Assembly: GCF_003977755.1 (NCBI RefSeq)
Contig: NZ_RQWN01000002.1
Location: 496,001 to 560,000 of the forward strand
Direction of reading: 5' to 3'
Source of the DNA: Haloterrigena salifodinae
Lineage (GTDB): Archaea; Halobacteriota; Halobacteria; Halobacteriales; Natrialbaceae
DNA: 64,000 bases
A model generated the notes under the pieces. It saw nothing but the letters and a program-made list of their open reading frames with translations. It was not told the DNA's origin and made no database searches. The position numbers were made by a program, and so were the translations under genes. Every line of letters begins with the position of its first letter. Position 1 is the stretch's first letter. Below are positions 57,635 to 59,704 of the stretch, in pieces.

Positions 57635-57647
57635 GTAGTGGTTCGTA

Positions 57648-57728
57648 ATGAGTGAGGGAATCGGGATTCTGCTGGCCGAGGATAACCCGGTCGATGTTCG
57701 TCTCATGTACTTAGCAGATGGTCGGTGA
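57648..57728 (+). pseudogene. truncated response-regulator receiver
   Basis: ATG at 57648 reads MSEGIGILLAEDNPVDVRLM, YLADGR, then stops. ILLAEDNPVDVRL is the first strand and acidic pocket of a receiver domain, about a fifth of its usual length. It would have been the kinase's partner. Nothing resembling the rest of the domain is found in the 285 bp up to 58013, which I see as non-coding and AT-richer. Confidence 0.75.
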
Positions 57729-58013
57729 ACTCGTGACCGATACGCGCTACTCAATTCAGCAAGACGCTACGAGCTCATGACTCCTCCATCACTTACGCCG
57801 GTTTTCAAATCCTCGAAAAACAGCCACCTTATGTCTGACGTAACAATCGCTCGTGTTGATTCAACAAAACAAAAGCAGTACTCATAACCGAGAGCAGTAC
57901 GCAAAGTAAGAACGCGATATATAATAGCTGACGTCGGTCAGCGGTGAACTGACGCCAACTTCGTTTGAGTTCTATTGATGCAATTCGAATAGCACCACAC
58001 ATACCAATCTAAT

Positions 58014-58376
58014 CTAATTATCTCTAGGCATTCTTTCCCCCGCTTCAAAGACCCTCTGGTAAAAAGGTGCGAGTACAATCATCCCAACAGCTGCCGAAAT
58101 GAAGGTCGTCGCATCGCCTGAATGTATCGGTTGAAATAAGACAACATAGCCCGCACCCATTGCGCTCCCAAGCCAACCACCAGTAAGTGAAAATGGTCGC
58201 TGGTTGAGGAAATAACCAATAGCAAAAAGGAGTGCGGAAAATCCAACGAACCCACCCGCGACAAGCGTCCAGTTCGTGTTTTCACTCGCCGTGAGAAGAT
58301 ACATTATCACGCCGGTGAGAGCAGCACTGATCCCATTAAGGACGATGAGTTTGAGGTTGAATTGGTTGGTGGCCAT
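58014..58376 (-). CDS. four-helix small membrane protein near halocin-like gene
   Basis: The protein is 120 residues with about four hydrophobic helices: LKLIVLNGISAALTGVIMYL, WTLVAGGFVGFSALLFAIGY, GGWLGSAMGAGYVVLFQPI and FISAAVGMIVLAPFYQRVF. Start ATG at 58376. Family not recognised. It lies 108 bp downstream of the broken halocin-C8-like gene on the same strand, so an immunity or export role is conceivable but unproven. Confidence 0.72.
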   Translation of the reverse strand: MATNQFNLKLIVLNGISAALTGVIMYLLTASENTNWTLVAGGFVGFSALLFAIGYFLNQRPFSLTGGWLGSAMGAGYVVLFQPIHSGDATTFISAAVGMIVLAPFYQRVFEAGERMPRDN

Positions 58377-58484
58377 ACGTATCTATACTGTAGATATCAC
58401 AATAAAAGTTACTTCCCAATATATTTATAATATCTATTATTGCCATATCATAAATAAAGTGGGCTATGGACGAGGATGAGAGAC

Positions 58485-59049
58485 CTAGCAGAGGTCTAGA
58501 CGGGGGTCTGCACAGAGTTCTTCGTAATCGTACTGTCCAGCACATCCTTTGCCAGCGGTGATTTTACAGGCGATTTGGGTGAAGGTAAAGCAGGTTCCAC
58601 CAGCAATGTAACCTGAACCTGAAAGAACTCCACAAATGAATGCAGTGCCTGCCCCCCATCCAATCTGGCAGATGAGTTCGAAGCATTTCTTACACCCCCA
58701 GCAGCCAAGATCAAATTGTTGCGCTGTAACTGCATCGCTCTGAACTGCGATTGTATCAGTGGATGCAGGCGGGATACCACCGTATGTGCTTACCTCACCG
58801 CCCTCTATCGCGTTGATTTTCGTTGCTTCTTTAGGGATATTTTCATTCGGATCGTTGATGTATTTCAGTTCGGCTATGGAGATTCCATTTTAATCAATCC
58901 CCGTCGTTTGACACGATCTTCACTGCGGAGTCCACTGAGAGTTTCCCCTGTCTCTGCACAACCGCTGCCGTCGTCGACGGAGTCATTGATCTCTTCAATT
59001 TGGTGTCAATGTCGTCAGGTTCTTTCACCAGTTCTGGACCACATTTCAC
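58485..59049 (-). pseudogene. frameshifted halocin-C8-like precursor
   Basis: The C-terminal frame (58889-58485) ends in a cysteine-rich peptide: QQFDLGCWGCKKCFELICQI, GWGAGTAFICGVLSGSGYIA, GGTCFTFTQIACKITAGKGC, AGQYDYEELCADPRLDLC. It has ten cysteines, as mature halocin C8 does, with the same GCxxC start, FICG core and length near 76. No start codon exists in this frame after the upstream stop at 58892-58890. Protein-like sequence continues in the next frame (EEINDSVDDGSGCAETGETL, SGLRSEDRVKRRG) and then in a third (KCGPELVKEPDDIDTKL from GTG 59049), so at least two frameshifts are needed. An ATATATTA box precedes. The N-terminal signal/immunity part is short or lost. Confidence 0.72.
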
Positions 59050-59704
59050 GAGTCAATTAGTAATATATTGTAATTAACAGCTGTTATTATACCTTACAGT
59101 GGAATTATTCCATCAGCTGAATTAGAACTTAAAAGAATAGTGTCCAAAAATCTAATTAGCTATTTATATAGTCTAGATTAGATTTAATGTGTTCAAATGT
59201 ATTGTATGCCCATTTAATCAGATCCGGATCATCGTTCAATAGGCAATTCGAAAGTTGACCGCGCTCATACCCACCTACGAGAACACGATCAATGACGAAG
59301 TATCGGGACGACGGGGTCCCTCGAGGAGTCGTTTCTGACTGACTCGACGCATCAGAGGAGATTCTCGACAGGCATTACGACCGTGCCAGCCGGGCGAATG
59401 AGCGTCCCGACACTGGCAGATTATCCAAGGAAAATGAACACGAAAACTGGAAGTAAGAAGGTAGCAACGATCGGACCAGTTAACGCCTACAGCGCCCACT
59501 TCTCTGCGACGGTGTCGAGTACTTACACTGCATTCGACGAGATCCGTTTCCGCGACGAGTCGTTCTCTCTCCTTCACCGACAGGGTTAAGCGAGAACGTT
59601 TTGATCGGTCTATTCGATAACAGTCCTATGCAGCGATCACAGTGGACTCGAACAGTTGCGATCCGAAGGCGCGACCGGTTCGCACACCCGACGACGGCAA
59701 GTCC
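59050..59704. other. AT-rich 655-bp stretch without a supported gene
   Basis: The part 59050-59230 is very AT-rich for this genome (for example TAGCTATTTATATAGTCTAG near 59160) and holds the promoter of the halocin-like pseudogene. The part 59270-59640 is nearer normal composition, with weak open frames on both strands that I cannot link to a family. Probably decayed accessory DNA. Confidence 0.5.

Follow-up and report, generated by a model that had tools for sequence, protein, structure and literature searches.

The window analysed here, a stretch of 64,000 nucleotides from a contig of Haloterrigena salifodinae, contains on its minus strand what is very likely the relic of a halocin-C8-like cassette, probably acquired horizontally, in which only the gene for a four-helix membrane protein is intact. 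The genes of this cassette are homologous to, and arranged in the same order as, those of intact relatives in other genomes of the order; all but the four-helix gene carry lesions, and the stretch that holds them is absent from a congener.

A broken halocin-C8-like precursor gene

The C-terminal part of the precursor lies in a minus-strand frame (58488-58889, with the stop at 58485) that is open for 134 codons and, as the preliminary description had noticed, lacks any ATG, GTG or TTG; the sole alternative start is a CTG at 58868. Its translation contains ten cysteines, including those of the motifs GCWGC, FICG and the terminal LDLC, and its C-terminus scores 29.7 bits against the NCBIfam model of halocin C8 (TIGR04449), above the curated cut-off of 24. 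When its last 75 residues were compared with a profile of distant family members the score was 50.6 bits, whereas 1000 shuffles in which every cysteine was held fixed averaged near 0 and reached 17.8 bits at most; the likeness to halocin C8 thus extends beyond the cysteines. The precursor C-terminal part and an intact homologue from Haladaptatus sp. DYF46 share 77% identity over 132 residues (E 4e-69), and in direct comparison with L015, which we take to be halocin C8 itself as it agrees with the published peptide and is from the same genus, 59 residues align at 37% identity (E 4e-9). These comparisons uphold the kinship with halocin C8 that had been proposed from the sequence, and the shuffles exclude a match by cysteines alone. 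The count of ten cysteines had likewise been read correctly, but its agreement with halocin C8 is a coincidence. Ten cysteines are conserved across the family alignment, of which the pseudogene copy keeps nine; the canonical cysteine of the IGC motif has become a tryptophan (residue 78 of P0001), and an extra cysteine at KKC, among the members compared common only to Haladaptatus, brings the total to ten. An Rfam search gave no match, a scan of IMG/VR recovered no viral relative, and no solved structure for the halocin-C8-like family was found by sequence.

Alignment to the DNA of the intact Haladaptatus gene reveals that about 310 nt are absent at 58884/58885 (minus strand), where the frame changes, and this internal deletion is the main lesion of the precursor gene. 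With it have gone residues ~54-157 of 289, comprising the Tat hydrophobic segment together with the greater part of the HalI-like propeptide; the Hac8_like_N domain, which spans residues 82-175 of the intact homologue, falls mostly within the deleted part, and no Pfam match to it was found in the window. Downstream of the deletion, the remainder of the propeptide and the mature peptide, including the stop, occupy 58485-58883 on the minus strand (tblastn 77% identity, E 1e-68; TIGR04449). Upstream of it, an N-terminal part (58886-59005, minus strand; matching residues 14-53 of the intact precursor by tblastn at 80% identity, E 8e-16) ends just past the Tat twin-arginine motif RRGLIKM, and further N-terminal homology continues in another frame up to about 59034, beyond a second lesion, a short indel near 59004. 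The preliminary description had recognized a halocin-C8-like gene broken in frame and had followed its homology upstream through two frame switches, placed at about 58880 and 59000; identity, break and switches all hold good (near 58884 and 59004), but the breakage that it attributed to frameshifts is due chiefly to the deletion, and indel errors are not its cause.

The precursor gene is thus a pseudogene and not the product of sequencing slips. An error of sequencing or assembly, by which the gene would be intact in the organism and its frame broken by indels in the record, would fit the frame switches at two points and the low dN/dS of the C-terminal part relative to Haladaptatus; we nevertheless regard it as highly improbable, because indel errors do not yield a gap of ~310 nt that takes out the Tat segment and most of the propeptide, and neither the truncation of the neighboring regulator and permease genes nor the substitution of a conserved cysteine is produced by point indel errors. 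There is hardly any chance, either, that translation of the C-terminal frame, from the CTG or by frameshifting, still yields an active peptide. The 134 codons of this frame are free of stops and the mature residues are mostly conserved, but no usual start codon is present in frame, the hydrophobic export segment after the twin arginine has been deleted so that no translatable frame with a Tat signal is left, the propeptide is largely missing and one conserved cysteine is lost. Given the deletion, the second frame break, the lost cysteine and the truncation of the regulator and permease, no halocin can be made from this locus, and secretion of a killing peptide by the broken gene is not expected. 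Lineage-specific changes at conserved sites, which are few, affect 3 of 41 positions in the mature peptide and 1 of 22 in the four-helix protein.

Intact relatives and the origin of the cassette

Halocin-C8-like matches were recovered in 25 of the 392 genomes of the order that were searched. The nearest intact precursor, an open 289-aa frame from Haladaptatus sp. DYF46 (L057), carries a twin-arginine motif with a hydrophobic stretch after it, a Hac8_like_N propeptide (Pfam PF22862) and a C8 domain (TIGR04449); the next nearest are from Halostella pelagica, Natrinema mahii, N. pallidum and Halopiger goleimassiliensis. In all five of these genomes the precursor stands in an intact and collinear array of four genes, namely an HTH regulator (HVO_A0261_N + FilR1_middle), the precursor, a four-helix protein of ~125 aa and an 11-12-TM protein of ~540 aa; the search for intact homologues and their neighbors, suggested at the outset, thereby identified the system to which the broken gene belongs. 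As no significant Pfam or NCBIfam match was found for the last of these proteins, we use "permease" only as a label for its many predicted membrane helices.

All four genes were recovered in the window by tblastn, with only the four-helix gene intact (58014-58376, minus strand, its 120 codons at 58017-58376). This gene had been noted before as a downstream neighbor; its presence is not incidental, since it is a member of the same cassette. The regulator survives as a C-terminal fragment of 43 codons (59162-59290, minus strand; 53% identity, E 1e-13) that aligns to residues 208-250 of the Haladaptatus sp. DYF46 regulator, its family being taken from the Pfam matches of that intact protein, and the permease as an N-terminal fragment of ~56 codons (57841-58008, minus strand; 57% identity, E 2e-16). 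Compared with the Haladaptatus cassette, in which all four genes are intact, the order is the same and the precursor and four-helix proteins are 77% and 83% identical. Permease and regulator families also adjoin the true halocin C8 gene (e.g. L037, L070; permease 27% identity, E 3e-28), and we therefore see the cassette as a branch of the halocin C8 system (ProC8/HalI; TIGR04449, PF22862; Natrinema, Haloterrigena). The pseudogene shares with this system the homologous cysteine-rich C-terminal domain, and its intact relatives share the Tat signal, the Hac8_like_N propeptide, the HTH regulator and the 12-TM permease. It differs from halocin C8 in being broken and in having lost one conserved cysteine, and its intact relatives differ in having the four-helix gene directly behind the precursor, where halocin C8 genes proper have none.

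In Natrinema, Halopiger and Halostella (L031-L034) the intact cassette lies just upstream of a CTP-synthase-like gene, which suggests either that this chromosomal position is old and shared or that it is a hot spot of integration. Among plasmid records no homologue of the four-helix protein was found and the halocin-C8-like genes are only distant; a hypothetical protein of the halophilic archaeon DL31 (CP002989.1:63950-64267) matches only residues 9-110, the N-terminal third of the Haladaptatus precursor, and may be a precursor that lacks the C8 domain. The genome of H. salifodinae itself has two more halocin-C8-like genes in open frames: one (G000:C3:536335-536601(-); L027, L037, L098) is close to halocin C8 proper at 60 bits, and the other (G000:C7:38326-38526(-); L100) is divergent, at 25.8 bits and in a 321-aa frame.

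The stretch 57839-59484 has a GC content of 45%, against 64.5% for the window. In the congener G329 both flanks are present at 94-95% identity with 30 nt between them and the stretch itself is absent; neither the four-helix gene nor a close relative of the precursor was found in the five congeners searched, and the nearest relative belongs to another family (Haladaptatus). Adjoining the regulator fragment on the plus strand (59291-59452) is the C-terminal remnant, with an internal stop, of a probable tyrosine recombinase. No Pfam match was found for this 54-aa fragment, which shares 63% identity with another frame of the genome, 201 aa long, that we take to resemble haloarchaeal integrases. 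Loss in all the congeners could in principle also explain the absence, but horizontal gain followed by decay is the simplest reading. Measured against Haladaptatus, at a dS of about 1, the four-helix gene has a dN/dS of 0.095 and the surviving part of the precursor one of 0.14, and at so deep a divergence these low values mostly reflect selection before the decay. They point to two once-functional genes and a comparatively recent break; the value for the four-helix gene does not prove that it is under selection at present.

Two other features of the window may be recorded here. A short, truncated start of a response-regulator-like gene (57647-57727, plus strand) stands behind the gene for a 1076-aa histidine kinase, and is older than the halocin relic, as G329 and G240 share this stretch. 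Between 13553 and 17700 on the minus strand, a strong base skew (AT skew about -0.4) coincides with very acidic predicted proteins rich in Glu, Asp and Ser.

The four-helix protein as a candidate immunity protein

By analogy with halocin C8, the precursor of the intact relatives would be exported via the Tat pathway and cleaved to free a disulfide-rich killing peptide of ~75 residues. The four-helix protein may protect the producer from within the membrane, and the permease may serve export or protection. In H. salifodinae the four-helix protein could still be made and act as the product of an orphan immunity gene against related halocins.

An AlphaFold model of this protein has four helices, at low confidence (pLDDT 58), and a counterpart that is 83% identical to it is encoded directly behind the intact Haladaptatus precursor. 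A profile search of the 392 genomes returned seven strong matches (E 2e-39 or better), which are also the sequences, or near-copies of them, from which the profile was built; single-sequence searches found the same genomes. All seven are encoded directly behind a halocin-C8-like precursor, the broken one in the case of the window, so that among the strong matches the family is dedicated and adjacent to a bacteriocin gene. Six weaker matches (E 5e-6 to 7e-4) have no obvious halocin neighbor and may be unrelated. Searches of Pfam, NCBIfam and PADLOC gave no significant match of the four-helix protein to a known immunity family.

Small membrane proteins are frequent in this position across the wider family. 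Counting downstream ORFs of 55-150 aa on the same strand, with at least 2 predicted membrane spans and a start no more than 120 nt downstream, we found one behind 14 of 26 halocin-C8-like precursors; the same DNA holds 212 other large ORFs, and just one of these has such a neighbor (Fisher p 9e-15). With the close clade of five members set aside, the count is still 9 of 21 precursors (p 6e-10). The p-values are rough, because some of the background ORFs are uncertain and the loci are in part related to one another, but the contrast between loci and background is large. Loci of halocin C8 proper have no small membrane gene directly downstream of the precursor, and immunity to halocin C8 is reported to reside in the HalI part of its precursor (review PMC11509114). 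This distribution, with small membrane genes behind other precursors and none behind that of halocin C8 with its HalI, makes it natural to infer that the small membrane proteins confer immunity in trans. We did not find these genes described in the searchable literature, a scope outside which the main specialist papers on halocin C8 fall.

For the four-helix protein itself we put the chances of an immunity role at about even. Halocin C8 itself carries its immunity within the precursor, in HalI, and on that precedent a second immunity protein would not be required. The main rival holds that the protein assists the permease, in export or maturation; the gene would then survive here only because the decay is recent. 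In favor of this alternative, every intact cassette has the four-helix gene placed after the precursor and before the permease, and the homologous permease of halocin C8 loci has a 74-aa membrane-type ORF immediately before it; dN/dS, moreover, cannot distinguish retention from recency. It is harder to reconcile with the eight loci (L066, L068, L069, L073, L074, L076, L078, L079) in which small membrane ORFs are found right behind precursors and no permease of the family was found nearby, or with G105 (L075), where the four-helix gene follows the precursor and the permease lies on the precursor's opposite side; we consider the accessory role possible but somewhat improbable. The 74-aa ORF abuts the start of a 534-aa permease (L037-L039) and is a possible counterpart of the four-helix gene. 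As to immunity, we tentatively propose, at a little below even chances, that much of the halocin-C8-like family relies for it on separate, lineage-specific small membrane proteins, instead of or besides HalI, and that the present locus is an orphan immunity gene kept after loss of the toxin. Class II bacteriocins of bacteria have small membrane immunity proteins whose genes lie beside the bacteriocin gene, and the arrangement seen here, with the gene for a small multi-helix membrane protein next to that of the bacteriocin, is alike; the four-helix candidate differs in its archaeal context and in having no Pfam or NCBIfam immunity match.

The pseudogene belongs to a known bacteriocin family and is ordinary in itself. 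Less ordinary is the finding that many halocin-C8-like precursors, other than those of halocin C8 proper, are followed by a small membrane gene, and this offers a testable hypothesis of immunity. Halocin C8 is the known case of a single gene for both peptide and immunity; if the proposal is correct, dedicated small membrane genes following most of the other precursors would alter this one-gene picture and provide concrete candidates. The relic in H. salifodinae illustrates how an archaeal weapon locus decays, with what may be the antidote as its last intact gene.
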